Positions 10,309 through 44,626 of a stretch of 64,000 nucleotides of DNA are shown here, one piece after another. Made by a program: the position numbers and the translations under genes. Origin of the DNA: Pandoraea apista (GTDB lineage Bacteria > Pseudomonadota > Gammaproteobacteria > Burkholderiales > Burkholderiaceae); NCBI RefSeq assembly GCF_001465595.2, contig NZ_CP013481.2, forward strand, positions 1,922,001 through 1,986,000. The letters run 5' to 3'. The notes under the pieces were generated by a model. It made no database searches, was not told where the DNA came from, and saw nothing but the letters and a program-made list of their open reading frames with translations. How positions within the stretch are numbered: position 1 is the stretch's first letter; every line of letters starts with the position of its first letter.

Positions 10309-10314
10309 TCACAT

Positions 10315-14307: not shown

Positions 14308-15111
14308 ATGACGAGCAACCCGGCGTCGCTATGGGTGCTAATGCTGGCCGGGTGCACCGTGTGTCTGGGTTTTTCGGGCGTCACGCCATCCGCGCTTGCC
14401 CAACTCGCGCCATCGCGGGGCAAGGCGCCGACCGAGGCAGCAGGCGCTGCAGTCTCTCGCGCGAACGCGCCGGCAGTGGCCGCTCGCGGCATTCCCGACG
14501 ACGAGCCACGCTTCGAATTCGACATCCCCGCACAGCCGCTTGCCGCCGCCATTGACCGGTTTGCCGCCATTTCACGTCAACCGGTGGTGTTTCTCGACGA
14601 ACTGGTGGACGGACGCCTGTCCGCTGCCATCCACGGACAATACGACGCTTTGTCGGCGTTGCGCATCATGCTCGTGGGCACCGGACTCGCTGTCGACGAT
14701 GTGAGCGGGCGTCAGAGCTCACCGGGCGGTGTGCGTGCCTTCGTGCTCTCCAGAGTCGCCGGCACCACGGACGACGCCGCGCCGCTCGCGTCTGCGCCTA
14801 GTCCATTGTTTGACGGTCTGGTGCAGTCAGGGGTCTGGTCGGCGCTGTGCAATAACCCGTCAACGGAGCCGGGCGGCTATCGCGCACTGCTGCAGTTTCA
14901 AGTCGACGGCGGTGGCCGGATCCGTTATGTCCGGCTGCTTGGCTCGACCGGCGACCGCTACCGCGACGCAGCGATCGTGGCGACGCTCACGGCCATTGAT
15001 GTCGGTCAGGCGCCGCCGCCCGGGCTGGCGCAACCGTTGACGCTCATGATCGTGCCCCGCGACGCCTTGTCGCAGTGGCTGACCTGCCAGGGAGGGCGCC
15101 GCCATGGCTGA
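14308..15111 (+). CDS. Exported STN-domain protein with TonB-C-like end, cassette 1
   Basis: 267 residues. An N-terminal hydrophobic stretch (8-31, ending ALAQ) looks like a signal peptide. A Pro/Ala-rich linker follows, then an STN (secretin and TonB N-terminus) domain at about 68-130 (FEFDIPAQPLAAAIDRFA and RIMLVGTGLAVDDV). The C-terminal domain at about 175-260 (YRALLQFQVDGGGRIRYVRL) resembles a TonB C-terminal domain. In FecA-type signalling the STN domain sits on an outer-membrane receptor and talks to FecR; here it stands alone. The last 8 bases overlap the sigma gene (ATGGCTGA), implying coupling. The function as periplasmic signal input is inferred. Confidence 0.8.
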   Translation: MTSNPASLWVLMLAGCTVCLGFSGVTPSALAQLAPSRGKAPTEAAGAAVSRANAPAVAARGIPDDEPRFEFDIPAQPLAAAIDRFAAISRQPVVFLDELVDGRLSAAIHGQYDALSALRIMLVGTGLAVDDVSGRQSSPGGVRAFVLSRVAGTTDDAAPLASAPSPLFDGLVQSGVWSALCNNPSTEPGGYRALLQFQVDGGGRIRYVRLLGSTGDRYRDAAIVATLTAIDVGQAPPPGLAQPLTLMIVPRDALSQWLTCQGGRRHG

Positions 15112-15628
15112 CGACGTGCCCCAGGGGTTGCGCAACTTCCTGCTCACGCGCTATGACGATCTCAGGCTAAGACTGCGGCGGGCGCTCGGCAGCGACGATC
15201 TGGCCGACGACGCGTTGCACGATACGTGGCTGCGCCTGCAACGAGGCGACGTGGCCGGTCCGATCCACAACCCGCAGGCTTACGTCATGCGCATGGCGGT
15301 CAACTTCGCGCTCGAAATTCGCCGTGGCCGCAGTCAGTTGTTGTCGTCAGACGATGTGGAGACATTGCTCGAACTCGTGCCCGATACCGCGCCGGGGCCC
15401 GAGCGCGTCGCCGAAGATCGTTCGCAATTGCAGGCGCTGGGCGAGATTCTGGGTAACATGCCCGCGCGCCGTCGCGAGATTCTGATTCTGGTGCGCTGGG
15501 AGGGCTGGGCGCAGCGCGACGTGGCCAAACGCTTTGGCATTTCGGTGCGAACCGTGGAATACGAACTCAAGACCGCCCAGGACTATTGCGCGGCCCGTCT
15601 GGCGCGACGCAACCGGAGCGAACGATGA
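15104..15628 (+). CDS. ECF sigma factor (FecI-like), cassette 1
   Basis: 174-residue extracytoplasmic-function sigma factor. Region 2 runs over about 8-75 (FLLTRYDDLRLRLRRALG, DDALHDTWLRLQ, NPQAYVMRMAVNFALE). Region 4 runs over about 110-165 (MPARRREILILVRWEGWAQ, AKRFGISVRTVEYEL), including its helix-turn-helix. Its start overlaps the end of the STN gene and GGGAGGG precedes it. The next gene is a FecR-like anti-sigma factor, so this is a FecI/FecR pair. Likely targets are the two matching promoters at 15645 and 16826, and perhaps the similar pair in cassette 2. Confidence 0.92.
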   Translation: MADDVPQGLRNFLLTRYDDLRLRLRRALGSDDLADDALHDTWLRLQRGDVAGPIHNPQAYVMRMAVNFALEIRRGRSQLLSSDDVETLLELVPDTAPGPERVAEDRSQLQALGEILGNMPARRREILILVRWEGWAQRDVAKRFGISVRTVEYELKTAQDYCAARLARRNRSER

Positions 15629-15644
15629 CGCAGACAACAAATTG

Positions 15645-15675
15645 TTGCGGGATCCGCGGCGCGGTAACCATCTGG
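15645..15675 (+). promoter_or_regulatory. Putative ECF promoter before fecR-like gene, cassette 1
   Basis: TT at 15645-15646, GCGGGA, a 16-base spacer and CATCT at 15669-15673, preceded by AAATTG. It shares sequence and exact spacing with three other sites (16826, 31030, 32214). It starts 17 bases after the sigma stop and would give the anti-sigma gene its own sigma-dependent transcript with a leader of about 75 bases. Confidence 0.65.
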
Positions 15676-15754
15676 ATAGTAAGGGGCCGTTGCATGACGT
15701 ACGGACGCGATGTCGCTCCGATGGCCGTCGCCGCCCGAGGCAATGTGAACTGAC

Positions 15755-16753
15755 ATGCTGAATTTTCCCGACTCCCGCGTCGAGCCGGACCTGCCCGATC
15801 CGCTCCGGCAGGACGCGCACGCATGGCTCGCGCGCCTAACCTCCGGTGCGGCGACGCAGGACGACGCCGCCGCCTTCCAGCGCTGGTGCGCCACGAGTCC
15901 CAGGCATCGGCAGGCCTTCGAAGAGGCGCGCGACCAGTGGCGCCTGCTGCAACCGGCCGTGGGGGGGCTGCTGGCAAGCCGTCCGGAGGTTGCCGAGCAT
16001 CACCGCCGCACGCTGCGCGAACCACGGGTCGGACGACGCGCGTTTCTCGGCACAGCACTCGGTGCGGTCGCCGCAACGGGCGTCGCGCTGATCCATCCAC
16101 CGTTCGACCTATGGACGCCCGTCGGGGAATGGCGCGCCGACTACCGCACGGCCGTGGGCGAGCAACGCACGGTGACGCTGGCCGATCAGGTGAGGGTCAC
16201 GATGAACACGCGCACCAGCGTGCGCCGTTTGGCATCGGGCGGGCAGACCGTCGGCCTCGACCTGCTCGGCGGCGAGGCGGCGTTCGACGTGCTCTCGGCC
16301 GATCGGGCCTTCGACGTGGTGGCCGGCGCAGGACGCAGCGTGGCGGACAGCGGCCGGTTCGAAGTGCGCTATCTGGACGGCAACGCGTGCGTGACTTGCC
16401 TGCGCGGGCGCGTCAGGGTCGAGCACCCCGGCGGCACGCGCACGCTGCTCGCCAGCCAGCAGGCGAAGTACGACGACCGCTTGGTGAGCGTCGCCACCAC
16501 GGTCGATGCCGCCGATGTGTCCGCTTGGCGGCGCGGCGAACTCGTCTTCAAGCGCGCACCGCTTGCCGACGTGATAACGGAAATCAATCGCTACCGGCAG
16601 GGGCGCGTCGTGTTGATGTCGTCGAGTGAGGCCGACAAGACGCTCAGCGCGCGCTTCCAGTTGGGGGCGCTGGATGTGGCGCTGGTGCAGATCCAGCGCT
16701 CGTTCGGCCTGAGCGCCAGATCGCTGCCCGGTGGCGTCGTCGTGTTGAGCTGA
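15755..16753 (+). CDS. FecR-like membrane anti-sigma factor, cassette 1
   Basis: 332 residues. The N-terminal cytosolic DUF4880-type domain (about 18-60, HAWLARLTSGAATQDDAAAF) is expected to hold the sigma factor. A twin-arginine motif GRRAFLGTALG at about 92 leads the single membrane segment. A periplasmic FecR domain follows (about 128-225, TAVGEQRTVTLADQVRVTMN; RFEVRYLDGNACVTCLRG). The C-terminal STN-like domain is at about 258-332 (LADVITEINRYRQGRVVL). E. coli FecR has been reported to use the Tat pathway, so the motif is plausible. The ribosome site is weak. Confidence 0.9.
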   Translation: MLNFPDSRVEPDLPDPLRQDAHAWLARLTSGAATQDDAAAFQRWCATSPRHRQAFEEARDQWRLLQPAVGGLLASRPEVAEHHRRTLREPRVGRRAFLGTALGAVAATGVALIHPPFDLWTPVGEWRADYRTAVGEQRTVTLADQVRVTMNTRTSVRRLASGGQTVGLDLLGGEAAFDVLSADRAFDVVAGAGRSVADSGRFEVRYLDGNACVTCLRGRVRVEHPGGTRTLLASQQAKYDDRLVSVATTVDAADVSAWRRGELVFKRAPLADVITEINRYRQGRVVLMSSSEADKTLSARFQLGALDVALVQIQRSFGLSARSLPGGVVVLS

Positions 16754-16825
16754 TGCGGCGTGTGCGCATCTGCTATGTGTTTGTTGAGGACTGCAAGGCA
16801 ATTTCCCGACGTCATAAAAAAATAA

Positions 16826-16855
16826 TTCGGGATTCCGTGGGGTATCGACCATCTA
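16826..16855 (+). promoter_or_regulatory. Putative ECF promoter before giant FHA gene, cassette 1
   Basis: TT at 16826-16827, CGGGAT, a 16-base spacer and CATCT at 16850-16854, with AAATAA just upstream. Same layout as the sites at 15645, 31030 and 32214. The leader to the chosen start of the giant gene is about 120 bases. Confidence 0.65.
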
Positions 16856-16982
16856 GAAGGTGACGAGTCCCCGTGTCGCTGGCGCGCGCTGCCGCCTCGA
16901 CGGTGGGCTCACTTCGGATACGGCTGCTCGCCAGGTTTGAGTGGCCGTCGGCATTGACTCAACCACCGGGCAGGAACCAGAA

Positions 16983-19900
16983 ATGAGCACATGCGGGCAG
17001 ACGGGCGCGGCGATCGCGACGATCACGACAAGCATTCGGTCGCAACGCAAATGCACGATACCTCGGGCACACGCCACCCAGGCAGCCACAGCGGCCCGTC
17101 TGGCACCGATGACCCGGGCTATCGCCGTCGCGCTGGCGACGGGCGGCATGCTCGGTACGGCACAGGCCGATCAGGCGTTCAGTCCCGCATGGTTCGCCGC
17201 CCGGGGCGCGGCGCAGAGCAGCGCCACGGCCACGGGCCGTCTGCCCAACGGCATGCCCGTCTCGTCGCTCAACAGCCCGTCGGAGCAACAGCGTCAGGCC
17301 AATGCGCAGTTGCAGCGTTCGGTGGCCAATCTCGGTGCGGCAGCGCAGGCCGTGGCGGCGCAGCAGGCGATGCAGGCGGCGGCGCGCCAGGCCGCACAGG
17401 CCAGCGCGTCAGTGCCCGACGGCCTGACCGACGGCGGCCTCAAGGTCGACACCAACAGTCTCACGCGCGGCTGGCTCAACGCCAACGCGCCGACACAGAC
17501 CGTGGCGGACGGTCAGACGATGGTCACGGTCCAGCAGACCGCGGACAAGGCCATCCTGAACTGGGAGACGTTCAACGTCGGCAAGAACACAACGGTGTCA
17601 TTCGAGCAACAGAAGGACTGGGCGGCGCTTAACCGCGTGAACGACCCGCAAGCGCGGCCGAGCAGGATTCAGGGGCAGATCAGGGGGGATGGCACAGTAC
17701 TGATCGTCAACCGCAACGGCATTCTCTTTACCGGCACGAGTCAGGTCGACACGCGCAATCTCGTTGCGGCGGCTGCGAACATCAGCAACGACCAATTCCA
17801 GAAGAACGGCATCTACGGCACGAGCGGTAACACCCCGACCTTTACCGATGCGATGGGCAAGGTGCAGGTCGACGCGGGCGCGCGGCTCGTCACGCGCGAG
17901 CCGACGAGCGTGACGCAAGGCGGCGGCTACGTTATGTTGCTGGGCACGGAGGTGAGTCATGCGGGCGAGATCGTCACCCACCGCGGGCAGACCCAACTGG
18001 CCGCCGGCGATGCGTTCGTGATTCGTCGCGGTGTGGGCACCGACGGCAACACGGCGTCGACCACGCGAGGCAATGAAATCGCACCGCAATTCGGCGCGAA
18101 CAGCACGGCCGGAAAGGTGGTCAACAGCGGGCTGATCGTTGCGCGCGAGGGCGACATCACGCTCGCCGGGCGTCAGGTGGAACAGCTAGGCGTGGCGTTA
18201 TCGAGCACGACGGTCAACACGCGCGGCACGATCCATCTGCTCAATTCCGCAAGCGACGCGCGCGGCAGCGTCACGTTCGGGCAGGGCGCCACGACCGCCG
18301 TGCTGATCGAAGACGACGGCAGTCGCGCGCTGGACAGCCAGCGCGAGGCGCTGATTCAGGCGTCGGCGTTGCAGGACAAGGTGCGCGCGCCGATTTCCGC
18401 CGACGCGTTCGACAATCTGTCGCGCCTGTTCGACCGGCGCGATCAGTCGCGCGTTGAAGTGGTCTCGGGCGGCGATGTGCTGTTCGACAGCCACTCGCTC
18501 ACGCTGGCCACGGGCGGACAGATTGCCGTGAGCGCGGGGCGTCGCAGTTTCGTCGCGAACCGGGCGTTGCTCGATGTCTCCGGCGCGGTGGGTGTGCAGT
18601 TGGACATGGCGTCGAACAACGTGAAGGTCAACGTTCAGGGCAACGAACAACGCGACGCACCGGGCAATCGCGACAACGGCAACCTGATCAACACGAACGT
18701 CTGGATCGACCGGCGACGGCTGGTGTACGTGGCGCCGAACGTAGGCGGCTACGCGAACGAACGTTGGTACACGTCGAACGGCCTGCTCGAAGTGGGCGGC
18801 TATCTGGGTAATCAGGGCCACACGATCGGCGAGTGGGCCGCGCAGGGCGGCACCGTGGTGCTGGGCGGCACGGAAGTCGTGACGCAGTCGGGGGCGAACG
18901 TGAACCTCGCGGGCGGCACGCTCGACGTGCAGACGGGATATCTGAACCAGACATGGCTCAAGGGCGCCGACGGTCGGCTGTACAACATCAACAGGGCGCC
19001 AGCCGACATGGTGTTTGCGGGCGTGTATCGCGGCTTCGAGAGCGAACATCCGCGCTGGGGCAAGAACACGACAGAAGCGTATTACACGCCGCTGATCGGG
19101 CCGCAGCGCGTGCTGGAGAATGGCTACACGGTGGGGCGCGACGCGGGGCAATTGATCGTCAATGCGCCGACGGCCGTGCTCGAAGGCGACATCGTCGCCA
19201 CGGTATTCAATGGCGCGCGACAGACGCAGGCGCCCACGGCAGCACTCACCGACAGCTATCGCCAGAGTCAGAACGCGGTGGCGCGGGAAGGCCGATTGGC
19301 AATCGGACAGTACGGGGCGCTGGGCCTCACTGGAGCGTTTAACACCAATGTGCGGATCGGCGACGTTGCGGACATCGGCATCATCGCACCCACAGATGCG
19401 CTGGCACCGAACCGGCTCAATACGGCGTGGCTCGACGCGACACGTTTGACTTCGCAATCGCTGGGCGGACTGGGCATCGCGACGCGCGATACGTTCACGC
19501 TCGACGCCCCGCTCACGCTCGCCAACGGCGCGAGCTTCTCGGTCGTTTCGCCGTTCGCCAGCCTTAACGCCGACCTCACGGTGCGAGCCGGACAGATCAG
19601 CGTCGGCAATACATTGCGGACTTCGAGCATCGACTACTTGAGCTTGACCGGCGGGGGGGGCGGCGTGTCCCTCGCGCCGGGCAAGACGATCGACGCGCGT
19701 GGCCTCTGGACGAACGTCAAGCTCGGCGGTTCGGCCAACGCGCGGCTCGCCTATGTGGACGGTGGCAGCGTCAAACTCAATTCGACGCAGGACATCACGC
19801 TGGGCGCCGGCAGTGCGATCGACGTGTCGTCGGGGGCCGCGATACTGGCAGACGGCAAGATTCTCGGCGGCAAGGGTGGGAGCGTCACGCTGAATGCCGA

Positions 19901-22900
19901 CGATGGCGGCAACGGCGCAGGCATGCTCACGCTCGGTAGCGATATTCGCGGCTTCGGTGTGAACGGCGGCGGCACATTGACGATCGGCACGGGCCAGCCC
20001 GTGATTCTCGGTAACGGACCGGTTCTGCCTGACGGACGGCTCTCTGCCGGCAAGGCCGCACCCGTCGATTTGCAACTGGGGGCGGATCTTGTCGTGCCCG
20101 CTGGCGGAGTGCTGCCGTTCTCGTTCGCGGTCACGCTTTCGAAGCTGGCTGCGGGCGACGTTGTGAAGGGAGGCGACGAACCGGTCTCGCTGATCCCGTC
20201 GCAAACGACCCCGCTCGTGCCGAAAGCCGACTGGACCGTGCCGATGACAATGACCGAAGTCGCGCTTGAGAACGGCACGCGGATATGGCCCGGACAGAGC
20301 GTGCCCGCTGGTTCGCGCATCGTCAGTGTGGTCGGCACGCTGCCCGACGGGTATGTCATTCCGGCCGACGCGTTTCCGAACGGCGTGAGCATCAAGCCCA
20401 ATCGCACGGGCTACGACGCCGGCACGCGCGTCGCTAACGACTTGGTCATCCGCTCGGGCACCGTGGTCCCCACGGGCACGGTGTTTGACCGGGCGATCAG
20501 CGTAAGACCCGTATTCGCGCTCGCGCCGTCGCTCTTCGCGAAGGGGTTCGGCAGCTACACGGTGAACAGCCATACGGGACTTACCGTCACGAGCGGCACC
20601 CATGTGAACGCCGTGATGCCGGTGCTGCGTCTGAGCGCCGACGCGTCGAATCTGGCGACGAGCGACAACCCGGCCGGTGCGTGGGATGTATGGTTGCCGC
20701 CCGCCTATCTGGCTGATGCCGCCAAGGGCACGGTAACGAAGCGCGGTGGTGCCGATGTCCTGCTGCAATCGAGCAGCGCGATGCGGGGCGGGCACATGAC
20801 GATCGAGCAAGGGGCGTCGATCACCGTCGACGCCGGCCGGCGTATTGCGCTCGAAAGCCCGGGACAGATCACTATCGAAGGCCGCTTGCAGGCGCCAGGC
20901 GGCGCGATTGACGTCTCGCAGGTCACGCTGGCGTACATGGCGCGCACGCCAGCGGACGCCGCGCCGGGGCAGCGTTCGATCCTGATCGGCGATCACGCCG
21001 TGCTCGACGTTGCCGGGCGTGCCGCGACGGCCATCGACGACGCCAATCGCCGCTACGCGGAAGTGCCCGACGGCGGGAGCATCACGATCGGTGCGCCGAC
21101 TAACCGAAACTTTGGCACGGGCCTCGCGCAGGCGGGCGAGGCGTTCATCGTCGTGCGTCCGGGCGCGATGCTCGATGCGTCGGGCGGTCTCGCCGTGACC
21201 GATCTGCCGGGCAATGCCGGTTCGCTGACGCTGGCTGGCAACGGCGGCACCATCGCGCTCAATTCCTTCAACGGCCTCTATCTCGACGGCACGATGCGTG
21301 CGGCGGCGGGCGGGCCGGGGGCGCAGGGCGGCACGCTGGTCCTGACCCTGGAAACGCCACGCTATCGCCAGACCGTGGTGCCGGACGATGTGCGCATGCT
21401 GCGAACGCTCGTGATCGGTCAGGACACGGTGCCGAGCGGCTCGGATGGTCCGCTGACGATCGGTACGGCGCGTATCGGCGTCGGGCAGATCAAGGCGGGC
21501 GGATTCGACAGTGTCTCGGCATATGCCGATCTCATCCGCTTCAGCGGCAACGTCGACCTGTCGCTCGGACGAGGCATTGAGCTTTATCACGGAACGCTGA
21601 TCACCGACGGGACCGATCAGACGGTTCGGCTGGCCGCGCCTTACGTGCAATTCAAGGCGGTCGCCTACAACTCGCTCGAAGGCAATCCGGTCTATCCGAA
21701 GGCGACCGGGGATGCGCCGGGCATACAGATTTCCGATTTGCCCACGAAGGCGAAGCTGGTCGTCGATGCATCGATGATCGAACTGGGCTCGCTTACGTTG
21801 TTCGGCGTGAAAGGGGCGTTGCCGCTCGTGGACGGCACGCGGCCGTTCAATCTGACAGGTTTCGACGCCGCCACGCTGAACAGTGCCGGTGATATTCGCG
21901 TGGGCAACGGCGTGGCCGGCACGCGCACACTCGATCTTGTCGCGGCGCAGATCTACCCGGTCTCGGCGCAGGACAACAACGCTGTCATCCCCGGCGCGAT
22001 CCGAGCGACGGAAACCGTGCGCATCGGGCGCAGCACCGACACGCTACCCGCCATGCCGTACGAGGTGTTCGGCAGCCTGAGCGTCTTTGCGAAGAACATC
22101 GAACAGGGTGGCGTGCTGCGCGCGCCGCTCGGCATGATTACGTTGGGCACGGCCAAGAACATCGGTGCCGGTCTCTTGACGTCGGGACCGACCGACAATG
22201 TCGTGTTATTGCCGGGCAGTGTCACGTCGGCGAGCGCCAAGGGGGTGACCCTGCCCTATGGCGGTACCGTCGACGGCATGACTTATTCGCATGCAGGCAA
22301 TGCCATCACAGGACCAGCGGGCTTCACCACGGGCGTGACGTTCGGCGGGAAGGCGTTCGACGTTCGGCAGGGAGCGGTCATCGATCTGTCCGGCGGCGGA
22401 GACGTGCTCGGCGCGGGCTTTATCAGCGGCCGCGGCGGTTCCGTCGATATCCTCACGACGCCGCTGGCGAACGCTGGACCTGGCTACCGCTTCAGCACGG
22501 CCGACAGTCAGGTCTATGCCATCGTGCCGGGCAGTCAGCCAGGCTATGCGCCAAGCGATGCAGAAGCCGGCGTGTTGCCATCGCTGGGCCGTCAGATCAC
22601 GGTGCAGGCGGGCGTGCCCGGACTCGCGGCCGGCACCTATACGCTCATGCCGGCACGCTACGCATTGTTGCCGGGCGCGTACCGGGTCGAAGTGGGCGCG
22701 CATACTGCGGCAGCCACATCACAGGTGGTACCGACGAGCAGCGGTTCGTGGGTGATTCAGGGCTATCAGGGCACGGCGTACACCGGCTATCGCGAGGCAC
22801 TGCCGACACGAATGGTCGTTACGCCGGGTAACCTCGTTCGCACGCACTCGCAGTACAACGAGACAAGCTATACCGACTTTCTCGTGTCGACGGCCAGACG

Positions 22901-29381: not shown

Positions 29382-29738
29382 CGTGCGATGACGTGAAAAT
29401 GTTGCTTCGATGAAAGCGATGACTTATGTCGACGGCGGGTATGTGGTGCAGTCGACGTATCGGGGGGGCCGGCATGAGACGTCCGAAGACGGAAGCTGTC
29501 GGCCGGCCCTACCAACGCCCGGCGCAAGGCACGGGCATGACGCTCCACGACATTCTGTTTCCCTCTCTGCCGAATGATGGCCGCAGGGTGTAACAGAATT
29601 GTCGTATTCCGATGTCATCATCTGCACTTTCCAGAGTTGCGTGCTGCATAGGCGATTGACGCATGCCGTCCGGTGCGCACTGAGGCCGGCGATTGGCGGC
29701 CTGACATGCCGTTGGTTCGGAAGCCGGGAGGATGCATC
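29382..29738. other. Intergenic region between the two FHA cassettes
   Basis: About 360 bases, with no terminator-like hairpin after the first giant gene and no convincing gene. The promoter of cassette 2 should lie here; I see no copy of the ECF-type motif. The purine-rich ribosome site GGGAGGA is at 29726-29732, directly before the chosen TTG start of the next gene. Confidence 0.45.
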
Positions 29739-31033: not shown

Positions 31034-31059
31034 GGGATTTGTGCGACGCCGTTCGTCCA
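31030..31059 (+). promoter_or_regulatory. Putative ECF promoter before fecR-like gene, cassette 2
   Basis: TT at 31030-31031, GAGGGA, a 16-base spacer, and CGTCC at 31054-31058, preceded by AAATAG. The upstream element overlaps the sigma stop codon (TGA 31031-31033). It is nearly the same as the site at 32214 over the first 14 bases. Confidence 0.65.
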
Positions 31060-32160: not shown

Positions 32161-32213
32161 CGATCCGAAGATCGAACGTTGGCGGGTTTCCCATATCGAT
32201 CGTCGGGAAATAG

Positions 32214-32243
32214 TTGAGGGTTTCCGCACAGCCCATTCGTCTT
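32214..32243 (+). promoter_or_regulatory. Putative ECF promoter before giant FHA gene, cassette 2
   Basis: TT at 32214-32215, GAGGGT, a 16-base spacer, and CGTCT at 32238-32242, with AAATAG upstream. Leader to the ATG at 32357 is about 105 bases. Confidence 0.65.
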
Positions 32244-32356
32244 AGCGACTCGGGATGCCGACACAACGCCGACAACGGCGATGTGCACGTTTCCGGCAAC
32301 GGGGTCGCCGATGGCGAATTTGCCGGAAGCGCTCAACTATCAGCGAGGATTCGGGC

Positions 32357-35300: not shown

Positions 35301-38300
35301 TCAAAGCCTACGGCGTGAATGGCGGCGGCAAGCTCACTATCTCGACACCCGACAGCATCATGATCGGAAGCAATGCCGGACTGGCGGGCGGGTCGCTCGC
35401 GTCGGGGACCGCGTCGGAGGTGGCGTTGAAGCTCGCAGAGCCGTACACCGTCCCGGCGGGCACGCCGTTGCCGTTCAGCGCCGTTGACGGGCGTACCCGG
35501 CTGACGCTGGACGTGCCCACACCGACCGACATCACCAGCGACGGCGGACCCAGCACGCCGACCGCCGCGCCTTGGGTCGTTCCGACCGGGGTCACCGTCA
35601 TGGTGACTCGTCCCAAAGGTCAATTGGGATGGGATCGCTACTACAGCGGCGACACATTACCCGCAGGCACGGTCATCTTCGCGCTCGATAACAGCGGTGT
35701 GATACCGGCAGGAACTGTCATTCCATCGAGCGTTTTTCCGAACGGTTTTCCGATCAAGCCGTACAGCGTTGTCTATACGGCTGGCACGGTTAGCGGCACC
35801 GACGTGACCTATCCTGTCGGCACGATCCTGCCTGCGGGGACGGTACTGGCGCGCACCGTCGCCGTAGCCCCCGTGCCGAGCTTCAGTGCAGGCAATTCCG
35901 GCAGCAATGCGCCGTTCTTCAGCGCCGGTTTTTCGAGTTACGACATCAATGGCGGTCAGGGGGTGCATATCGACAAGGGCGTGACGCTGGCGCCCACCAT
36001 GCCGGTATACCGCTTCACCGCCAACAGCATGAACGCCCGCACGGGCAGCGATCCTGCTCAGGCGATGACGCTAACCTTGCCGCCGTTGTTTGCCGAGAAT
36101 GCGAGCGCTGGCACCTTGACCCAGCGCGGTGGGGCAAGCCTTGCGTTGCGCGCACTCAAAAAGGACTATCTCGGCAATCCGTCGGGCGCCGACATCGTTG
36201 TCTCGCCACAGGCTTCGATCATCGTCGATCCGGGGCAGAGCATTACGCTCGACGCTTTCGAGCAGATCACCGTCGATGGTTCCCTGAGTGCGCGCGGGGG
36301 CAAGATCAATCTCGTCAACGAGGGCGACGGCAGTTTGCCCAATACGCGAATCTTCGACGACAGCGGCGCGAATCGGGGCGTATCGGTCTGGTTAGGACCG
36401 CAGGCAATGCTTGACGTCTCCGGTCTCGGCTATACGGCGACCGACGCGAACGGCCGAACCTACGGCACCGTACTCGACGGCGGTGCGATCAACATCAACG
36501 GCGGCACAGCCTTCGTTGTCTTGCGCCCGGGCGCTCAAATGAACGCCGACGGCGTCAGTGTGAGCGTCGATACGGCAACGGTTTCCGGACAGCCGGCGAA
36601 CGCCAGGGGCACCACGGCGCTTGTTTCCAATGGCGGCTCGATTGCGCTCACCTCGATGAGCGGATTGGCACTGGACGGCGACATGCACGCGAGAGCGGGC
36701 GGGGCCGGCGCCTCGGGCGGCGACTTGTCGCTCACGCTGATCACGCTACAGTTTTGGGATCCGCTGGGGCAAACGCCACTCAGTCAACGCCCGGTGAGCA
36801 TGATGATGCTGACGCAAACGCGTCCGGACCCTGTCGCGTTATCGGGACCGGGGGCACCGGTTTCGGTGCTGCCTGTCGGTCGCGGGGTGATCAGTGTCGA
36901 CCAGATCAAGTCCGGCGGGTTCAGTTCGCTGTCGCTCACGTCAACTGACTATCTCAACTTCAACGGCGATGTCTCGCTCTCGCTCGACAAGAGCCTGCGG
37001 CTTAACGCCGGTGAGTACGTCTCGGGCATGCCGCTGGTCGCGGGCGAGAGCCCGACGGATCATCCGGGCCACGGCAATGTGCGTTTGAGTGCGCCATATG
37101 TTCTGCTCAGCGCCACGCCGTTCACCTTGCCCGACGGATACGTATCCGGCTCGCTGGGCAACCCCAATGCGTCGGCACGCCCGACGACGGCAACCTTCGA
37201 GATCGACGCGAATCTCATCGATGTCAAGGGCCCGGTGGTTTTCTCTTCGCGATCGAGCTACTACGATTCCGATCAATATGTGAACGTGGACACGTCGGCG
37301 CCGGGCTTCCGTTCGGTCAAGCTTGTCAGTCAGGGCGACATTCGGTTTCTCGCTTCGCCGAACGCTACCAATGGAACCGTACTTGCGTCGTCGTGGGATA
37401 TCGCGCTCGACGGCGCACAGATCTATCCGGCAACGGGCGCCGTTGCCACCGTTACCGCCGGTCAGAGCAACAGCAATTACACCGATGCGACCTTGTCGAT
37501 CGGGCGTACGACCGACACGGTGCCTGACACCCCGTACTCCGCGTTTGGCACGTTAAGCCTGGTGGCCCCGAACATTCGGCAGGGCGGTATCTTGCGGGCA
37601 CCGTTCGGCAAACTTCTGATGGGAGTCCCAGCCGTTGGCGGGGTGCTCACAGGCTCGACGAGCAATATCGAGTTTCTCCCCGGCAGCCTCACTTCGGCGT
37701 CGCTGAACGGTTTGGTGATGCCGTATGGCGGCACTGTCGACGGCGTGACCTACACCTACAACGGCGCGACCATTCCCGGATACCTGACGGAACTGAGTCT
37801 CGATAGTCGGTTGCTGGGCGCAGGCATGCTGCTCCAGAGCAAGACCATCCGCGTCGACGAGAACGCCGTACTCGATCTCTCGGGCGGCGGTACGCTTACG
37901 GGGGCGGGCTTTGTCTCGGGGCGTGGCGGATCCGTCAACGTGCTGAATACGCCGCTCGTGAACGCCAATCCGACCATGACCCTGAGCAAGGCGGGGAACA
38001 CGGTCTATGCCATTCTGCCCGGCTATGCGTCGAACTACGCGCCTGTCGCGGCCGAGAACGGCGCGGGCGACCCCGTCGTCGGACAGCGCATCACCCTGGG
38101 AGAGGGCGTTCCGGGGCTCGCGGCAGGAACGTACACGCTGCTGCCCTCGAATTACGCACTGCTGCCCGGCGCCTATCGTGTCGAGATCGGCGGCACGGTC
38201 GGAAATCTGCCGGCAACGGCCACCGCGGCAGGCAACGGAACCTACCTCGTGCCCGGGTACACGAGCGTTGCGAATACGGCCATACGAAGTCAGCTACCGT

Positions 38301-41300
38301 CGAGCGTGCTGGTGACACCCGGCACCGCAGTGCGCAAGTACTCGCAATACAACGAACAAAGCTACAGCGACTTCGTCACGAGCCAGGTCGCCCAGTTCGG
38401 CGGGGTGGCGCCCATGTTGCCAAGAGACGGCAGCGCACTCGCGATCCGCTTCAATCTCTCGGATACGCCGGACACACCGTCGCCCTATCCGGCGCTGGTG
38501 TTCGACGGCCGAGCGTTGTTTCAGCCGGCCGCCGGTGGCACGGCCGGACAGGTCGGTGTGTTCAACATCGGCGAAATCACGAACGGCGATATTTCACCGG
38601 GCTTCACCGGCGTGTCGGTGACGGGCCAGGCGCTGAGTGCGCTCGGCGCACCGCGCTTGAGCGTCAATGGCAAAGTGGGGCTCGCCAACGGCGTACTCGG
38701 CTTCGAGCAGGCTCCGGCGTCGGGCGATCTGGCCGTGCGCGATGGGGTGACGTTGACGGCTGGCGAGATTTACTTGGTCGGCGGCAACATCGACATTGGC
38801 CGCGACGTGACACTTTCGACCGTGGGACAAGGCCCAGCGCGCTTCGACACGGCGTCGACCGGCTACAAATTCTCTGCGGGAAATGCCACGGTGCTGGGAT
38901 TGTCCAACGGCGACCTGCAATTCGTCGGGTCATCCGGCGGTAGTGGAGCGATCAACATCGGCGCGGGCGCTGGCCTATTTGCGGAGGGCACCGTCGCGCT
39001 CGCGACCAACGGCGCCTCGAGCATCGACCCCGACGCCCGCTTCGGTGCGCGCAACATCGCGCTGGCGGTCGGCACGCTCAATGTCGGCGATGCGGCGCAG
39101 ATTGTGGCCGCAGGCAATCCGGCCGGCGTGCTGTTCAATCAATCGGTGCTCAACACATTGCTTCAGGGCGATTCGACGCATGGCGCACCTGCGCTGCAAC
39201 GGCTGACGTTGAGCACGGCGAACGCGATCAATCTGTTCGGGAGCAACGGACTGGATACGCGCGGCAAAGGGGTCGATCTTGTCCTGAATTCCCCCGCAAT
39301 CTACGGCACGGGTGCGGCGGGTGATCGGGCGGTGGTGGCGGCGGATCGCATCGTGTGGAACGGCGTGCAAGGGGGCGGTGCACCGGCGATCACGGCGGGC
39401 GGGCCGGGAACCGGTAGCGGATCTCTGCAATTCGTCGCCAGAGAGATCGACATCGGTGAGCCAGTGACACTCGATACGTCGAACGTCAATCGCACGATGT
39501 ACGGCTTCAACAGTGTCGATTTCTCGGCAAGCGAGCGTATCGTTTCGGCTGGACGCGGTGCGTTGTACGTCTATCAGGCGCCGAGTACGCAGGCCGGCGA
39601 TGTTCTTGGGCAGAGCGGCACGGGCGGGAACCTGACGCTGAGCACACCGCTGCTGACCGGTGCGGCCAAGTCGATCATCAACTACACGACCGGCGGCACG
39701 TTGACTGTTGTGACACCGGCGGGTGTGGCCCCGAGCGTCGCGACGACAACGGTTGCCGGTGCCGAAATCGATCTTTCCGGCAACAACGTGAACATCGGCA
39801 GCGCCGTGCTGTTGCCCAGCGGCAAGTTCGTGGTGAACGCGGTCAACGACATCGTGCTCGACGGTAACAGCCGGATCGATCTGCGCGGACGGCCGACGAC
39901 GATTCAGAGCGCGACGGTGTATGGCTTCGGCGGCTCGGCCGTCTTGCGCAGCATGCAAGGCAGCGTCAGTCAATTGGCCGGGTCGGTCGTCGACGTATCG
40001 GCAACACACGCCAACGCCGGCGCGATTTCGATCGACGCCGCCACGGGCACGCTCTCGCTCGGAGGCAGTGTGCTGGGCGCGGCGGACGAGGGCTTCACGA
40101 GCGGGGCATTCGGCGCGTCGGTCAGCACCTTCTCAGACTTCTCCGGATTGAACGCGCTTCTCACTCGGGGCGGCTTCTTCGACTCGCGCAGCTTCGACCA
40201 GAAACGGGGCGATCTGGTCGTCGGCGATGGCGTGAAGGCACACAACGTTGGCATTGCCGTCGATAGCGGCATGTTGACCGTGAACGGGACCATCGACGCC
40301 TCGGGCGCCCAGCCCGGCACCATCCGCTTGTCGGGTGGCAATGGTCTGATGCTGGGCAGCAGCGCCGTGCTCGATGCGCACGGCACCCAATTGCAGGTCG
40401 ACAGTTATGGCGCCCCCATCGAGGCGAAAAATCGCGGGCACGTCGAACTGACGGCTGCCGGCGGAACGCTGACGCTCTCGCCAGGCGCCACGATCGACCT
40501 GAGCACACCGGGCGCGACCCACTACGGCGACGTGATTCTGAATGCCATGCGAACCGCGGAAACGTCGGGTGACGTGGCGATCGACGCTGCCGGCCCGCTG
40601 GCGATTCGCGGCGCGAACAGCATCGCCCTGAACGGGGTCTGGACGTACACGTTGCCCTCGGGCAGTGTCGTGACTCAATCGACCCTCGACGACTACGACA
40701 CGGCCAGCACCGCGTTCATGAATCAGGCGCAGGGCAATGCGGCTTTGGGGGCGCGCACGGCAGGGCTTGCGGCTTATGGCAGTGCTTACCACTTGCGTCC
40801 GGGCGTGCAGATCGCGTCACTGGGTGATCTCTCGACGGCGGGCGATATCGATCTGGCGAAGTACCGCTACGGCGCGGGCGCGGATCGCGATCCGGCCTCG
40901 GCGACGTATGGGGCCGGCGAGCCGATGGCGCTGATTCTGCGTGCGGCCGGGAATCTGGCGATCAACGGCAGCATCTCCGACGGGTTCACCGGCACGGGGG
41001 CGGGCGCACCGGCCTTCTCGGCGATCACGCCGGCAACGTTCTCGACTGACACGTCCCATTTCGGCAAGCAAGGGGCGTACCTTTGGCGCTTGAGCGCGGG
41101 CAACACCATGGTCGTGAGCAATCCGAATGGGTGGCTCGTGCCGCAGTACGGGCCCGCCCGTAACCTTGCCCTTCCGCCGTCGGTGCAGCCGACAGCGTTA
41201 GACGGAACGCAATATCCTTCCGGCAGCGTGGTTCCGTTCGGGACGATCCTGACGCGACTGTATGTGCCGGTGGGTTCGGAAATACCGTCGGCGGCCAGCT

Positions 41301-44300
41301 TGTCGCTCCAGACCGACCCCGGCACGCCGGCGGCTTCGGCGACATCTGCCCGTGCCAGTTTGCTGGCGCCAGGCATGCTCTCGGCATCACTGCGTCTGGT
41401 GGCAGGCGCTGATCTGTCCGGCGCCGATCAGCGCGCGTTGCAGTCGGTGCCCACGCTCGGCGGCAGCGGCAATCTCACATTGAGCGACAGCGCTTACGAC
41501 GCGTCGCAGAAAGGCACGTTCTTCAGCGTGTTGCGCACTGGCACCGGAAGTCTCGAACTGCTCGCGGGCAACAGCTTCAGCGAAGCGACGCCTTATGGCG
41601 TTTATACGGCGGGCACGCAAGCGGCGCCGATTCTGGCGGCAGACGGCCGTAACCCGTATAACTTGCCGGGCGCGGCAACCAGCGGTGTGCTTCAGGCCTG
41701 GTATCCCGAGCACGGCGGCGACTTGCTGCTGATGGCGCAGCAGGACGTCAGCGGCAATATTCAATTGGCCGACAATCCAGTGCGCTATGTGAACAGCAAT
41801 CAGGTCGGGAACTGGCTGAACCGGCAAGGCGGTGGTGGTGCAACGAACGATCCCGCCGCGTGGTCGATCAATTTCGGTTCGCTCGCGAAGACCGATCCGA
41901 ATGCCACCGATCTTCAACTGATTGGCTTTCAGGGGATCGGCACCCTGGGCGGCGGCAATCTGACGGTGATTGCCGGGCGAGATGCGGGGGCCATCGCCGT
42001 CCCCGATACCAGCGGAACGACATCGACCGGGCTGGATCTCGCGGTAGCGTCGACTGGACGTGTGCTGTCCGACGGTACGCTCGTGCAGACCGGCGGGGGC
42101 GATCTCACGCTCAAAGTCGGCCGTCAGCTCAACGGCGCCGACCCCTCAACCTCGCGCGACTTCCGCCGAGACTACTTCGGGTCGTTGACGGCCTTGCGTG
42201 GCGACACGTCGGTGGAATCTGGCGCCGTTGGCGTGATCGCGCCGCAAATCCGCGGTGTCGTCTGGACGACTTACGATCCGCGCGCCCCGGAGCCCAATGC
42301 GATCAAGCTGACGATGCGCACGCCGGGACCGACGGTGCTCGTGGGCGACGGGGCCGCGAACATCGTGGCACGCGGCGATCTGGTGCTGGCCGGGGCGGGC
42401 GACGCGGGCATGTCGCTTTTCTCCGACAAGGGCGGCGGTTACTACACGTCTGTGGCCGCCGGAAGCGGTGTGGCATCGGTCGTCAAGGGGGGCTATTCGA
42501 GATTTACGCTCTGGACGCCGGGCACGAGTCTCAGGCTGCTCTCGGCCGGAGGCGATGTTTCGCCCTTGTCCGGCACGGGCAGCGGCGATGCGTCGAACGC
42601 TCTGGGCTTCTATCCGGGCAGTCTGAGCGCCGTGTCGCTCAATGGCGATATCCGGTTCGGCGAAGGGCAGACCATCGAATTGATGCCGTCGCCGATCGGG
42701 CAGCTTCAGGTGCTTGCCGCCGGCACGATCTACGGAGCGGGCTCGACGATTGCGATGTCAGGCGCCGACCTCGCGAGCCTCGCCACACCGCTACATCCGG
42801 TCTTCACGACGATGGAGGGCTTCACTGCCAACTCGCTCACGAACGCCTCGGCGAACGCCGCCCAGCGAATCAACTGGGCAAGTCCTCTTGCCTTCGGCGA
42901 GGATTACCCGTCGGGCAGTTTGCATGCGCCGGATGGCGCGCCGGCACAGATCTACGCTGGCACCGATATCGACGACTTACAGATTGGGATGACCACCGTC
43001 GTAAACTTGGGGCCGGCGAGCGGATTTACGCCGAGCCACGCGCGGTGGTTTGTCGCCGGCAAGCCGGTCGAGGTCATCGCGGGACGCGATATCGTGGGCA
43101 CCGGTACGTTGCCGAGCACATTCCTGAATCAGTCGGACAGCGATGTCTCGCTGATGCAGGCGGGGCGCGACATCATCTATCAGTCGGCGAACATCGTCGG
43201 GCCGGGCTTGCTCCAGATTCAGGCCGGGCGCAACGTGTATCAGGGCTACTACGGTCAGTTGCAGAGCATGGGCGACGTGGCGCATCCGTCGAACACGAAT
43301 GGCGGCGCGGGGATCTCGGTGCTCGCCGGTGTCGGTGCCAATGGCCCGGACTACTCGCGTTTTGCCCGCCTCTACTTCGACCCGGCCAATCAGCTTGCCA
43401 GCGGTTTGCCGCTGGCCGACAGTGGCAAGGTCGTTCATGCCTATGGCGACGAACTCGTGGCGTGGCTCAAGCGCCGCTTCGGCTACGACGGCAACGCCTC
43501 GGACGCGCTGAGCTATTTCCTCTCGCTGCCACAGATCCAACAGGGCGTGTTCGTGCGGCAGGTTTATTTCAAGGAACTGCTGCTGGGAGGGCGCGAGTAT
43601 AACGATGCGTCGAGCCCGCGCTACGGCAGCTATCTGCGTGGCCGCGAGGCCATTGCCACGCTATTCCCAACGAGCGACGCGCAAGGCAATCCGCTGAGCT
43701 ACAGCGGTGCGATCACGCTGTTCAGCAGCGTGACCGGGTCAACAACGGTCAACGGCAAGCCCGTTCCCGTGACGACCGACGCCACGGTACGTACCAACTT
43801 CGGCGGCGACATCCAGATGTTGAATCCGGGCGGACGCATGCTTGTCGGCGTGGAAGGCGTGACCCCTGGCGCGGCGGCCGGGGTCGTCACTCAGGGCGAT
43901 GGCGACATTCAGTTGTATAGCCGTGACAGCATTTTGCTGGGCCTGTCGCGTGTGATGACGACCTTCGGCGGCAGCATACAGGCGTGGTCGGCGCAGGGCG
44001 ATATCAACGCCGGTCGCGGCGCAAAGACGACCGTGCTCTACACGCCGCCGAGGCGCGTATATGACGACAGTGGCAACGTGACGCTCTCGGCGTCGGTGCC
44101 GTCGAGCGGGGCGGGCATTGCCACGCTCGCGCCGTTGCCGGAAGTGCCGCCGGGCGACGTCGACCTGGTGGCGCCGCTGGGCACGATCGATGCGGGCGAG
44201 GCCGGCGTGCGCGTGTCGGGCAACGTCAACTTCGCCGCGCTCGCGGTCGTGAATGCCGCCAACGTGCAGGTGCAGGGTAAGTCGACGGGCTTGCCGGTGA

Positions 44301-44626
44301 TCGCGGCGGTCAACGTGGGTGCGCTGACCAATGCGAGTGCAACGGCGGCACAGGCCGCGTCGGCCGCGCAGGACGCGATGGCGCGTGAGCGCGTCACGCA
44401 GCGCCAGAACCTGCCGTCGATCTTCTCCGTGCGGATGTTGAGCACGGGGGGCGGTGCGACCGACGGCACAGCGGGCAGCGACACGCCCGCGGGATCACGC
44501 GCGCCGGGCCCGCTTGGCTACGATCGATCGAGCCTTCTGCAATTGGTTGGCAGTGGCAATCAACTCGATCCGCGTCAGCTCGCGCGACTGACCGATGAGG
44601 AGCGCCGTGCGCTGAACACGCATTGA
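32357..44626 (+). CDS. Giant filamentous-haemagglutinin-family protein, cassette 2
   Basis: 4089 residues from the ATG at 32357 (GAGGA seven bases upstream; begins MST like its paralogue). An open extension back to 32255 is arginine-rich and not shared. It has an extended signal peptide (ending GAAHA) and the block QAFSNAWFAARGAAQ. The haemagglutination-activity domain follows (AILNWETFNVGRNTSVNF, IQGQIHGDGTVLILNRNG), then a long repetitive beta-rich centre. The C-terminal block has GREYNDASSPRYGSYLRGRE, SRVMTTFGGSI and TIDAGEAGVRVSGNVNF. The first about 800 and last about 350 residues are close to the paralogue; the centre has diverged with insertions and deletions. No transporter gene is adjacent. 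Confidence 0.9.
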   Translation: MSTRGREGATAMRSSGRRIGLGLMRRPRRVAPIAQAITLLLTTMGAAHAQQAFSNAWFAARGAAQATASQTGRLPNGMPVTSLMDPSAQQQQANAQLQRSIANLGTAAQNIAAMQAAQANARAAAGNTDATIPDGLSEGGLKVDTNSLTKGWVNAQAPTQTSANGKTNVNIAQTADKAILNWETFNVGRNTSVNFAQQSDWAALNRVNDPNARPSQIQGQIHGDGTVLILNRNGVIFGGTSQVDTRNLVVAAARMSDAQFQTGGIYGANGTTPSFTDALGKVEVQAGANITTRTPTSVTQGGGYVLLLGNQVSNAGAIVTPQGQVALAAGDSFVIRKGVGTDANTASTTRGNEISPQFVAQSTAGKVVNTGLLMASEGDITLAGRDVQQLGTAVSTTTVNTRGTIHLLNSASDTQGKVTLGSGALTSVLISDSGATALDSQRTALIQDSATQDALRAGTSSGLFDNLSKLSDRRDQSRVEIVSGGNVEFQSDSLTLATGGQIAVSATGRSFVANRAQLDVSGAVGVSLSMDSNNVKVNVQGNEQRDAPGNRDNAALNNANVWIDRRRLVYVPASVGGYANERWYTPGGLLEVGGYLANQAHGIGEWAAQGGTVTIGGNEVVTQKGALINLSGGSLDVQTGYLNQSWLKGADGQLYNVNTAPSNVLYTGVYNGFEVDHPRWGKNTTESYASPLIAPTRVLQNGYTVGRDAGKLIVNAPTAVLEADVTATVYTGPVQTQARPSSLTDGYALSQFTVARAGSLALGQYSNLGRINGYASDVVIGAFDDITQGMAAGDALDTARNGTVWMDAGRLNSAGLGELDLVSTHRIAVNGDLNLATGGRLSLIAPRVDVNGDVTARGGIVNVTNLFLKAGDTFPTPLLTPDNVAVLTLGPNRTIDVRGVWVNGALDPNSLSQVAYLNGGNVTFDSTGDLTIDTGSVIDVSSGGAVLANGKTRGGTGGNVTLIAGDAAANFSRGTLVLDGTIKAYGVNGGGKLTISTPDSIMIGSNAGLAGGSLASGTASEVALKLAEPYTVPAGTPLPFSAVDGRTRLTLDVPTPTDITSDGGPSTPTAAPWVVPTGVTVMVTRPKGQLGWDRYYSGDTLPAGTVIFALDNSGVIPAGTVIPSSVFPNGFPIKPYSVVYTAGTVSGTDVTYPVGTILPAGTVLARTVAVAPVPSFSAGNSGSNAPFFSAGFSSYDINGGQGVHIDKGVTLAPTMPVYRFTANSMNARTGSDPAQAMTLTLPPLFAENASAGTLTQRGGASLALRALKKDYLGNPSGADIVVSPQASIIVDPGQSITLDAFEQITVDGSLSARGGKINLVNEGDGSLPNTRIFDDSGANRGVSVWLGPQAMLDVSGLGYTATDANGRTYGTVLDGGAININGGTAFVVLRPGAQMNADGVSVSVDTATVSGQPANARGTTALVSNGGSIALTSMSGLALDGDMHARAGGAGASGGDLSLTLITLQFWDPLGQTPLSQRPVSMMMLTQTRPDPVALSGPGAPVSVLPVGRGVISVDQIKSGGFSSLSLTSTDYLNFNGDVSLSLDKSLRLNAGEYVSGMPLVAGESPTDHPGHGNVRLSAPYVLLSATPFTLPDGYVSGSLGNPNASARPTTATFEIDANLIDVKGPVVFSSRSSYYDSDQYVNVDTSAPGFRSVKLVSQGDIRFLASPNATNGTVLASSWDIALDGAQIYPATGAVATVTAGQSNSNYTDATLSIGRTTDTVPDTPYSAFGTLSLVAPNIRQGGILRAPFGKLLMGVPAVGGVLTGSTSNIEFLPGSLTSASLNGLVMPYGGTVDGVTYTYNGATIPGYLTELSLDSRLLGAGMLLQSKTIRVDENAVLDLSGGGTLTGAGFVSGRGGSVNVLNTPLVNANPTMTLSKAGNTVYAILPGYASNYAPVAAENGAGDPVVGQRITLGEGVPGLAAGTYTLLPSNYALLPGAYRVEIGGTVGNLPATATAAGNGTYLVPGYTSVANTAIRSQLPSSVLVTPGTAVRKYSQYNEQSYSDFVTSQVAQFGGVAPMLPRDGSALAIRFNLSDTPDTPSPYPALVFDGRALFQPAAGGTAGQVGVFNIGEITNGDISPGFTGVSVTGQALSALGAPRLSVNGKVGLANGVLGFEQAPASGDLAVRDGVTLTAGEIYLVGGNIDIGRDVTLSTVGQGPARFDTASTGYKFSAGNATVLGLSNGDLQFVGSSGGSGAINIGAGAGLFAEGTVALATNGASSIDPDARFGARNIALAVGTLNVGDAAQIVAAGNPAGVLFNQSVLNTLLQGDSTHGAPALQRLTLSTANAINLFGSNGLDTRGKGVDLVLNSPAIYGTGAAGDRAVVAADRIVWNGVQGGGAPAITAGGPGTGSGSLQFVAREIDIGEPVTLDTSNVNRTMYGFNSVDFSASERIVSAGRGALYVYQAPSTQAGDVLGQSGTGGNLTLSTPLLTGAAKSIINYTTGGTLTVVTPAGVAPSVATTTVAGAEIDLSGNNVNIGSAVLLPSGKFVVNAVNDIVLDGNSRIDLRGRPTTIQSATVYGFGGSAVLRSMQGSVSQLAGSVVDVSATHANAGAISIDAATGTLSLGGSVLGAADEGFTSGAFGASVSTFSDFSGLNALLTRGGFFDSRSFDQKRGDLVVGDGVKAHNVGIAVDSGMLTVNGTIDASGAQPGTIRLSGGNGLMLGSSAVLDAHGTQLQVDSYGAPIEAKNRGHVELTAAGGTLTLSPGATIDLSTPGATHYGDVILNAMRTAETSGDVAIDAAGPLAIRGANSIALNGVWTYTLPSGSVVTQSTLDDYDTASTAFMNQAQGNAALGARTAGLAAYGSAYHLRPGVQIASLGDLSTAGDIDLAKYRYGAGADRDPASATYGAGEPMALILRAAGNLAINGSISDGFTGTGAGAPAFSAITPATFSTDTSHFGKQGAYLWRLSAGNTMVVSNPNGWLVPQYGPARNLALPPSVQPTALDGTQYPSGSVVPFGTILTRLYVPVGSEIPSAASLSLQTDPGTPAASATSARASLLAPGMLSASLRLVAGADLSGADQRALQSVPTLGGSGNLTLSDSAYDASQKGTFFSVLRTGTGSLELLAGNSFSEATPYGVYTAGTQAAPILAADGRNPYNLPGAATSGVLQAWYPEHGGDLLLMAQQDVSGNIQLADNPVRYVNSNQVGNWLNRQGGGGATNDPAAWSINFGSLAKTDPNATDLQLIGFQGIGTLGGGNLTVIAGRDAGAIAVPDTSGTTSTGLDLAVASTGRVLSDGTLVQTGGGDLTLKVGRQLNGADPSTSRDFRRDYFGSLTALRGDTSVESGAVGVIAPQIRGVVWTTYDPRAPEPNAIKLTMRTPGPTVLVGDGAANIVARGDLVLAGAGDAGMSLFSDKGGGYYTSVAAGSGVASVVKGGYSRFTLWTPGTSLRLLSAGGDVSPLSGTGSGDASNALGFYPGSLSAVSLNGDIRFGEGQTIELMPSPIGQLQVLAAGTIYGAGSTIAMSGADLASLATPLHPVFTTMEGFTANSLTNASANAAQRINWASPLAFGEDYPSGSLHAPDGAPAQIYAGTDIDDLQIGMTTVVNLGPASGFTPSHARWFVAGKPVEVIAGRDIVGTGTLPSTFLNQSDSDVSLMQAGRDIIYQSANIVGPGLLQIQAGRNVYQGYYGQLQSMGDVAHPSNTNGGAGISVLAGVGANGPDYSRFARLYFDPANQLASGLPLADSGKVVHAYGDELVAWLKRRFGYDGNASDALSYFLSLPQIQQGVFVRQVYFKELLLGGREYNDASSPRYGSYLRGREAIATLFPTSDAQGNPLSYSGAITLFSSVTGSTTVNGKPVPVTTDATVRTNFGGDIQMLNPGGRMLVGVEGVTPGAAAGVVTQGDGDIQLYSRDSILLGLSRVMTTFGGSIQAWSAQGDINAGRGAKTTVLYTPPRRVYDDSGNVTLSASVPSSGAGIATLAPLPEVPPGDVDLVAPLGTIDAGEAGVRVSGNVNFAALAVVNAANVQVQGKSTGLPVIAAVNVGALTNASATAAQAASAAQDAMARERVTQRQNLPSIFSVRMLSTGGGATDGTAGSDTPAGSRAPGPLGYDRSSLLQLVGSGNQLDPRQLARLTDEERRALNTH

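Follow-up and report, generated by a model that had tools for sequence, protein, structure and literature searches.

Two gene cassettes in the window

The window analysed here is a stretch of 64,000 nucleotides (C1:1922001-1986000) of the 5.57-Mb genome of Pandoraea apista, which belongs to a genus known for cystic-fibrosis isolates. As listed in Table 1, two cassettes (cassette 1 and cassette 2, or W1 and W2) lie head-to-tail on the + strand. Each encodes an STN protein with a TonB/TolA-like C-terminal domain (CTD), an extracytoplasmic function (ECF) sigma factor, a FecR anti-sigma factor, and a giant protein secreted by two-partner secretion (TPS). A preliminary description of this DNA had noticed that the four gene types occur twice in identical order and strand, with each sigma start overlapping the STN stop. 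This was confirmed, and the overlap is 8 bp in cassette 1 and 4 bp in cassette 2. A Pfam domain search found no beta-barrel domain in the STN proteins; the solved structures nearest to their STN domain are those of siderophore, citrate, and haem receptors. In the giants (FHA1 and FHA2), Pfam finds the TPS and DUF3739 domains only and no toxin domain. About 110 residues follow DUF3739, and the two C-termini look similar by eye. There is no TpsB gene within the window, no iron-uptake gene inside the two cassettes, and no + strand open reading frame (ORF) of at least 100 aa between FHA1 and cassette 2 in the ORF list of the window.

Table 1. Features of the two window cassettes and the related loci of the same genome (window positions unless C1 is given)
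Feature	Position	Strand	Remark
tRNA-Pro(TGG)	13768..13844	+	left border of the variable slot holding the cassettes
Pho-box-like direct repeat CTGCCACCGGATTGTCAC upstream of cassette 1	14197..14214	+	0/60 shuffles as good
VreA-like STN + TonB/TolA-CTD protein, cassette 1	14308..15111	+	267 aa; both domains under Pfam cut-offs
VreI-like ECF sigma factor, cassette 1	15104..15628	+	174 aa
Promoter-like motif before fecR1	15648..15676	+	
VreR/FecR-like anti-sigma factor, cassette 1	15755..16753	+	332 aa
Promoter-like motif before FHA1	16828..16857	+	
Giant TpsA/PdtA-like protein, cassette 1 (FHA1)	16941..29381	+	TPS + DUF3739; probable start 16983
Weak pho-box-like repeat GTGTAACAGAATTGTCGT upstream of cassette 2	29588..29605	+	not significant, p 0.45
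VreA-like STN + TonB/TolA-CTD protein, cassette 2	29673..30521	+	282 aa
VreI-like ECF sigma factor, cassette 2	30518..31033	+	ATGA overlap with STN stop
Promoter-like motif AGTTGAGGG-N-TT...TTCGTC before fecR2	31028..31057	+	overlaps sigma stop codon
VreR/FecR-like anti-sigma factor, cassette 2	31147..32160	+	337 aa
Promoter-like motif before FHA2	32212..32241	+	
Giant TpsA/PdtA-like protein, cassette 2 (FHA2)	32255..44626	+	TPS + DUF3739; probable start 32357
Gene-conversion tract in the FHA2 gene	32510..34425	+	approximate, read in 60-column windows
Cassettes W1, W2	window		tandem
Cassettes B2, B1	C1 3.94-3.97 Mb		tandem
Cassette H	C1 4.469-4.485 Mb		beside exporter hub
Hub TpsB-ExbB-ExbD-TonB-porin-YbjN	C1:4.487-4.494 Mb		same strand as H, upstream of H

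Both cassettes follow the PUMA3 plan (VreA-VreI-VreR-TpsA) known from Pseudomonas aeruginosa. There, VreA is described as a periplasmic STN plus TolA/TonB-like protein without a barrel, the vreA and vreI genes overlap by 4 bp, and VreR is followed by a TPS system with ExbB-ExbD downstream (PMC2729926). The P. aeruginosa system spans PA0674-PA0699 and includes PdtA (TpsA)-PdtB (TpsB) and ExbB2-ExbD2-TonB4 (PMC2729926, PMC4971064, PMC7035377). The window cassettes likewise have, by domains and fold, a protein combining STN signalling with a TolA/TonB-like C-terminal domain and no beta-barrel, a sigma gene overlapping the vreA-like gene, and a FecR-type anti-sigma gene adjoining a TPS-domain giant. 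TpsB, ExbB, ExbD, PpiC, and a PA0696-type porin are encoded in the same genome, outside the window. A pho-box match also precedes the vreA-like gene in some cassettes, as the pho box does vreA. On the other hand, the exporter hub of Pandoraea is about 2.5 Mb from the window cassettes, several cassettes occur per genome, PpiC lies upstream of TpsB, and a motif precedes fecR; the 2009 paper assigned the P. aeruginosa vreR to a separate transcription unit (PMC2729926).

Thus, the claim that no system of this form had been described is corrected, since PUMA3 shares the plan. Even the repetition has precedents: Janthinobacterium sp. and Rhodopseudomonas palustris have four clusters each, three of which are followed by tpsA and the fourth by tpsB, exbBD, and a PA0696 homologue (PMC2729926). 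Hxc/LapA genes are not named, in the available part of that paper, for every species carrying the cluster. Unlike in these two species, the Pandoraea tpsB precedes a vre-tpsA cassette or, in genome G021, stands away from all cassettes, and the motif uniqueness and gene conversion described below are not reported for their clusters in the same part of PMC2729926. The cassettes are real and well conserved but of a known kind, multiplied in Pandoraea, and do not form a new class. Among the open-access matches listed, none deals with PUMA3 in Pandoraea or with TPS-domain gene conversion in such cassettes.

One exporter hub and many cassettes

By STN and DUF3739 searches and reading of the fetched stretches, five intact cassettes were found at three loci of the genome, one of them beside an exporter hub (Table 1). 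The hub encodes a TpsB of 561 aa, a LamG-ExbB fusion of 608 aa, ExbD, a TonB-like protein (a TonB_2 match under the Pfam cut-off), Porin_5, and YbjN, with PpiC upstream of TpsB. These genes match the annotated tpsB, exbB2, exbD2, tonB4, porin, and PpiC genes of PA0692-PA0696/PA0699 in content, not in exact order. The reading of the giant as the whole output of its regulators is not supported, a TpsB-ExbBD-TonB hub lying elsewhere in the genome. The VreA profile also matches the hub TonB-like protein at two hub loci (L105 and L106; E about 2e-9 and 3e-10), which suggests that VreA and the hub TonB have related TonB/TolA-type domains.

Is this arrangement common in the genus? DUF3739 is present in 18 of the 32 genomes analysed and absent from 14. 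The STN profile was searched in 24 genomes, namely the 18 and six of the 14, with a cassette cut-off of at least 140 bits. It gave 52 matches (five in the own genome and 47 in others), and the next one scored 64 bits in an 872-aa frame; in the six DUF3739-negative genomes, matches were in longer frames only (575-1082 aa). The 52 cassettes are distributed over 17 genomes, one to six per genome. All have the STN, sigma, and FecR genes and 51 have an FHA start; the other (G001_L088) ends at a contig edge. The gene order is conserved, as the preliminary description expected, in 51/51 cassettes with the fourth gene on the contig, and a possible sigma start overlaps or abuts the STN stop in 47/52. 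The giant frames of about 4100 codons stay open in many species. Each of the 17 cassette-bearing genomes has exactly one homologue of the hub TpsB, with 88-97% identity outside the own genome, whereas the eighteenth genome searched, with a DUF3739 remnant only, has none. TpsB matches from named organisms, at 96% identity, point to Pandoraea or a close neighbour as the host. In G021, assembled as a single contig, none of the five cassettes adjoins the hub.

The hub order extends beyond Pandoraea. A GTDB genome scan with the TpsB alignment, covering Burkholderiales and Pseudomonas records, confirmed 410 of 417 stretches, and 80 loci were kept. Their surroundings out to about 10 kb, less on short contigs, include ExbB (78), ExbD (75), TonB (74), porin (73), TpsA (64), PpiC (43), VreA-like (30), sigma (29), and FecR (25) genes. 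The order was seen in Pandoraea, Cupriavidus, Variovorax, Herbaspirillum, Janthinobacterium, Achromobacter, and Pseudomonas, P. aeruginosa not being among the 80.

Two further frames of the own genome resemble cassette genes. The sixth DUF3739 frame, of 1324 aa and without a TPS domain (C1:510523-514497; L024:8523-12497), is followed by a ThiF/JAB protein gene; a DUF3739 match in G009 also lies in a frame of 1324-aa length, and this may perhaps be a conserved stub. An extra ECF-sigma-like gene of 257 aa lies between the B2 giant and B1 STN genes (C1:3954881-3955654; L019:4881-5654), preceded by its own AAAAAATAATCTGCGGATTT...CCGTCTTG block as judged by eye.

Homogenised TPS domains and distinct regulators

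Over about nucleotides 256-2170 of the gene, FHA2 is 96-100% identical at the nucleotide level to the giant gene of B2, which lies 2 Mb from it, against 36-58% just before this tract. The match to B1 is shorter and interrupted, while B1 and B2 are 100% identical over about nucleotides 256-1396. Synonymous differences (ps) among the five giants of the genome are near saturation (about 0.6), save for alignment columns 1-600 of W2, B1, and B2 (0.03-0.20). Of 67 within-genome pairs in the genus, 10 combine a TPS ps of 0.03-0.31 with a FecR ps of 0.60-0.67. For 50 cassettes (two at contig ends were dropped), the nearest neighbour of the TPS domain is in the same genome in 12 cases, an ortholog in 30, and another sequence in eight; the corresponding FecR counts are 0, 48, and two. 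The TPS tree mixes W2, B1, and B2 (support 0.35-0.79) as well as groups H and Y (0.53), while W1 and group X remain apart. The unlinked Y cassette and the hub-linked H have homogenised TPS domains in three other species. These results show conversion of the export-signal (TPS) domain between cassettes 2 Mb apart, the regulators staying distinct. W1 took no part in it; thus, conversion is not required by every cassette.

The ends of the giants had been noted to be more alike than the centres. This holds for W1 and W2, while the N-terminal likeness of W2 to B1 and B2 is partly due to recent gene conversion. The W2 giant is closest overall to that of B2 (70% identity, against 46-52% in other pairs), yet their FecR proteins are only 38% identical, which suggests a reshuffling of adhesins and regulators as well. 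In meningococcal TpsA, the 3′ end is exchanged between TpsA-family sequences (PMC3848433). Recombination among such sequences is common to both cases, but in Pandoraea it is the 5′ secretion domain that is homogenised.

Promoter-like motifs and pho boxes

Each window cassette has a promoter-like motif before its fecR gene and another before its giant gene. The sharing of motifs between the gaps of a cassette was significant in a permutation test on group consensuses including the sigma gene end (p=0.0009). Without the sigma gene end the comparison failed, within-cassette pairs ranking 8, 32, 37, 44, and 47 of 66, in part because the W2 motif overlaps the sigma stop codon. In the 5.57-Mb genome, the W1 pattern (spacer 13-16) and the W2 pattern have two sites each, both within their own cassette, against none for the reversed-pattern control; a longer spacer range for W1 yielded one site. 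The H-cassette pattern has a third site outside its cassette (C1:5493252-5493281). A generic pattern, TTGCGG...CGTCTT, was uninformative, with 18 genome matches and 18 for the reversed-pattern controls. These results suggest cassette-specific promoters, and each sigma factor probably uses the motifs of its own cassette.

In P. aeruginosa, the PUMA3 plan is reported to be under phosphate control, not iron control, with a pho box upstream of vreA (PMC4971064, PMC7035377). Pho boxes at p<=0.02 were found in 17 of 52 cassette upstream regions, against 0/52 in each of two coding controls. They occur in three of eight cassette groups, including that of cassette 1 (2/2) and not that of cassette 2 (0/5). 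In W1, a third half-site-like CTTGCAT follows the repeat at about 14219 (by eye). In all five W2 cassettes, the best match is the weak repeat of W2 or a similar one, its positions differing by no more than 12 bp. Before the FHA genes, pho boxes were unconvincing (4/52 at p<=0.02). PhoB may gate some of the cassettes.

The pst-phoB-phoR region itself lies just upstream of the cassettes: pstS-pstC-pstA-pstB-phoU-phoB-phoR, ppk (reverse), and ppx, named by eye from their translations, occupy 1191-11956, and the best pho-box match before pstS is ATGACATATTACTGTCAC. This proximity was set aside as a functional link, because the slot behind tRNA-Pro that holds the cassettes is variable.

A proposed model: separately switched giants and a shared exporter

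It is quite probable that the cassettes are PUMA3-type signalling units, each with its own regulators and promoters, whose giants are exported by the single hub TpsB, and that PhoB stands upstream of some of them. The signal would pass from the sensor to FecR, the sigma factor, and finally the giant. The three regulators of a cassette (STN-TonB/TolA-like protein, ECF sigma factor, and anti-sigma FecR) would control the transcription of two genes, that of a single giant TpsA and fecR itself, and each cassette would use a promoter family of its own. Export of the giants in trans would fall to the TpsB encoded once per genome in the ExbB-ExbD-TonB-porin hub, and phosphate starvation would probably act upstream of some cassettes via PhoB, as in P. 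aeruginosa. That the sigma/FecR pair drives the neighbouring giant rather than an iron receptor, as first proposed, is the most likely case. The hub TpsB probably exports the window giants too, and their function is presumably adhesion. The best reading is one of separately switched adhesins with one common exporter.

The cassettes could instead be orphans, the sigma/FecR pairs acting elsewhere and FHA1 and FHA2 being unexported or exported by another TpsB. The window is without a TpsB, the W1 and W2 patterns are absent before the hub TpsB, and the ShlB-family matches of the genome include, besides the hub TpsB and a short fragment, two sizeable genes (454 aa, and 593 aa with POTRA_2). However, the giant frames have stayed open in many species, cassettes and the hub TpsB occur in the same 17 of the 18 genomes searched, the homogenisation of Y with H fits one common exporter, and the W1 and W2 motifs are found nowhere else in the genome. 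Orphan cassettes are thus unlikely.

Sharing of an exporter has parallels, since TpsB transporters secreting more than one TpsA are known (PMC5422565) and relaxed specificity is described for BcpB (PMC10449530). Those are likewise cases of one TpsB and several TpsA proteins, but they belong to other TPS systems or to contact-dependent inhibition (CDI) systems, whereas in Pandoraea up to six VreA-I-R-controlled giants per genome would share the exporter. More tentatively, the whole may be a selectable surface display: up to six adhesins per genome, each with its own sensor, sigma factor, and insulated promoter pair, would be served by one exporter energised by ExbB-ExbD-TonB. Recurrent conversion of the export tag alone would keep the compatibility with the exporter while sensors, promoters, and adhesive shafts diversify, and new cassettes would plug into variable slots such as that at tRNA-Pro. 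This idea is plausible, although I would not yet favour it.

With one to six cassettes and a single hub TpsB in every cassette-bearing genome, the genus makes two questions about PUMA3 testable, namely the role of VreA and why some genomes hold several copies. It can be asked whether the sigma promoters are separate, whether one exporter serves all the giants, and whether the export tag evolves in concert. The diverged regulators beside a near-identical secretion domain make a clean natural case of single-domain concerted evolution. The interest lies in this evolution of the export tag and in the probable sharing of an exporter by separately switched cargo.

Origin of the tandem pair

Grouping by sigma identity gave H (15 cassettes), B2 (12), X (6), B1 (5), W2 (5), Y (5), W1 (2), and two singletons. 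In a midpoint-rooted tree of sigma and FecR from 50 cassettes, each of the seven multi-member groups forms a clade (support 1.0; H 0.79). The tree draws W1 next to B1 and puts W2 with the G001 singleton and group Y; W1 and W2 are not sisters. The slot after tRNA-Pro also varies among relatives. It holds X in G013 and W2-X in G009, each preceded by about 18-19 kb of different sequence; in G015 it has no cassette and is filled with 11 kb of different sequence. These three genomes match both window flanks, the left one up to 13.86-13.89 kb and the right one from 44.79-44.96 kb. In G021, where the slot holds X, the left flank alone was matched. For G012 and G031, the match on the left stops at 13844, where the tRNA ends, and the 20 kb fetched showed no right flank. 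Tandem pairs, judged by position, occur in five of 17 genomes (two pairs in G000 and one each in G009, G015, G021, and G022), and fragmented assemblies may hide more. B1 and B2 are adjacent in four genomes, in both orders.

The preliminary description had a single cassette duplicated in place, with copies that then drifted. The shared order and strand, the head-to-tail arrangement, and the near-saturated synonymous sites between W1 and W2 agree with such an event, and the old divergence is borne out. Nevertheless, duplication in place is improbable, given the separation of W1 from W2 in the regulator tree and the X, W2-X, or unrelated DNA in the slot of relatives. Rather, the best reading of the window pair is that two old members of the family came to lie next to each other. 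Overall, the conserved order, the old divergence, and the giant as target survive from the preliminary description, while the novelty, the in-place duplication, and the giant-only output do not.

Iron signalling and contact-dependent inhibition

A classical FecIRA iron-type system whose receptor has lost its barrel is very improbable. The regulators belong to the FecI/FecR families, and the STN domain is nearest to those of iron-compound and haem receptors; but the sensor is no TonB-dependent outer-membrane barrel receptor, the cassettes contain no iron-uptake gene, and phosphate, not iron, controls the same plan in P. aeruginosa. CdiA-like CDI proteins are very improbable as well: the giants are TPS-family proteins of comparable size and FHA2 is followed by a 238-aa ORF without a Pfam match (44956-45672), but Pfam finds no domain besides TPS and DUF3739, both giants end alike, by eye, shortly after DUF3739, no + strand ORF of at least 100 aa lies between FHA1 and cassette 2, and the ORF after FHA2 is part of the flank kept by the cassette-free G015.

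Other features of the window

A prophage-like region (51455-63471) lies to the right of the cassettes. It encodes an integrase (51455-52576), an HNH+AP2 endonuclease (54440-55147), a DUF3799 protein, an S24 repressor (61539-62207), and a CII-like regulator (62962-63471). The reverse-strand ORF at 59664-60428 has long alanine-rich near-repeats (GDAAGDAARDAAGAAA...), and the frame on the opposite strand is rich in cysteine and glycine.

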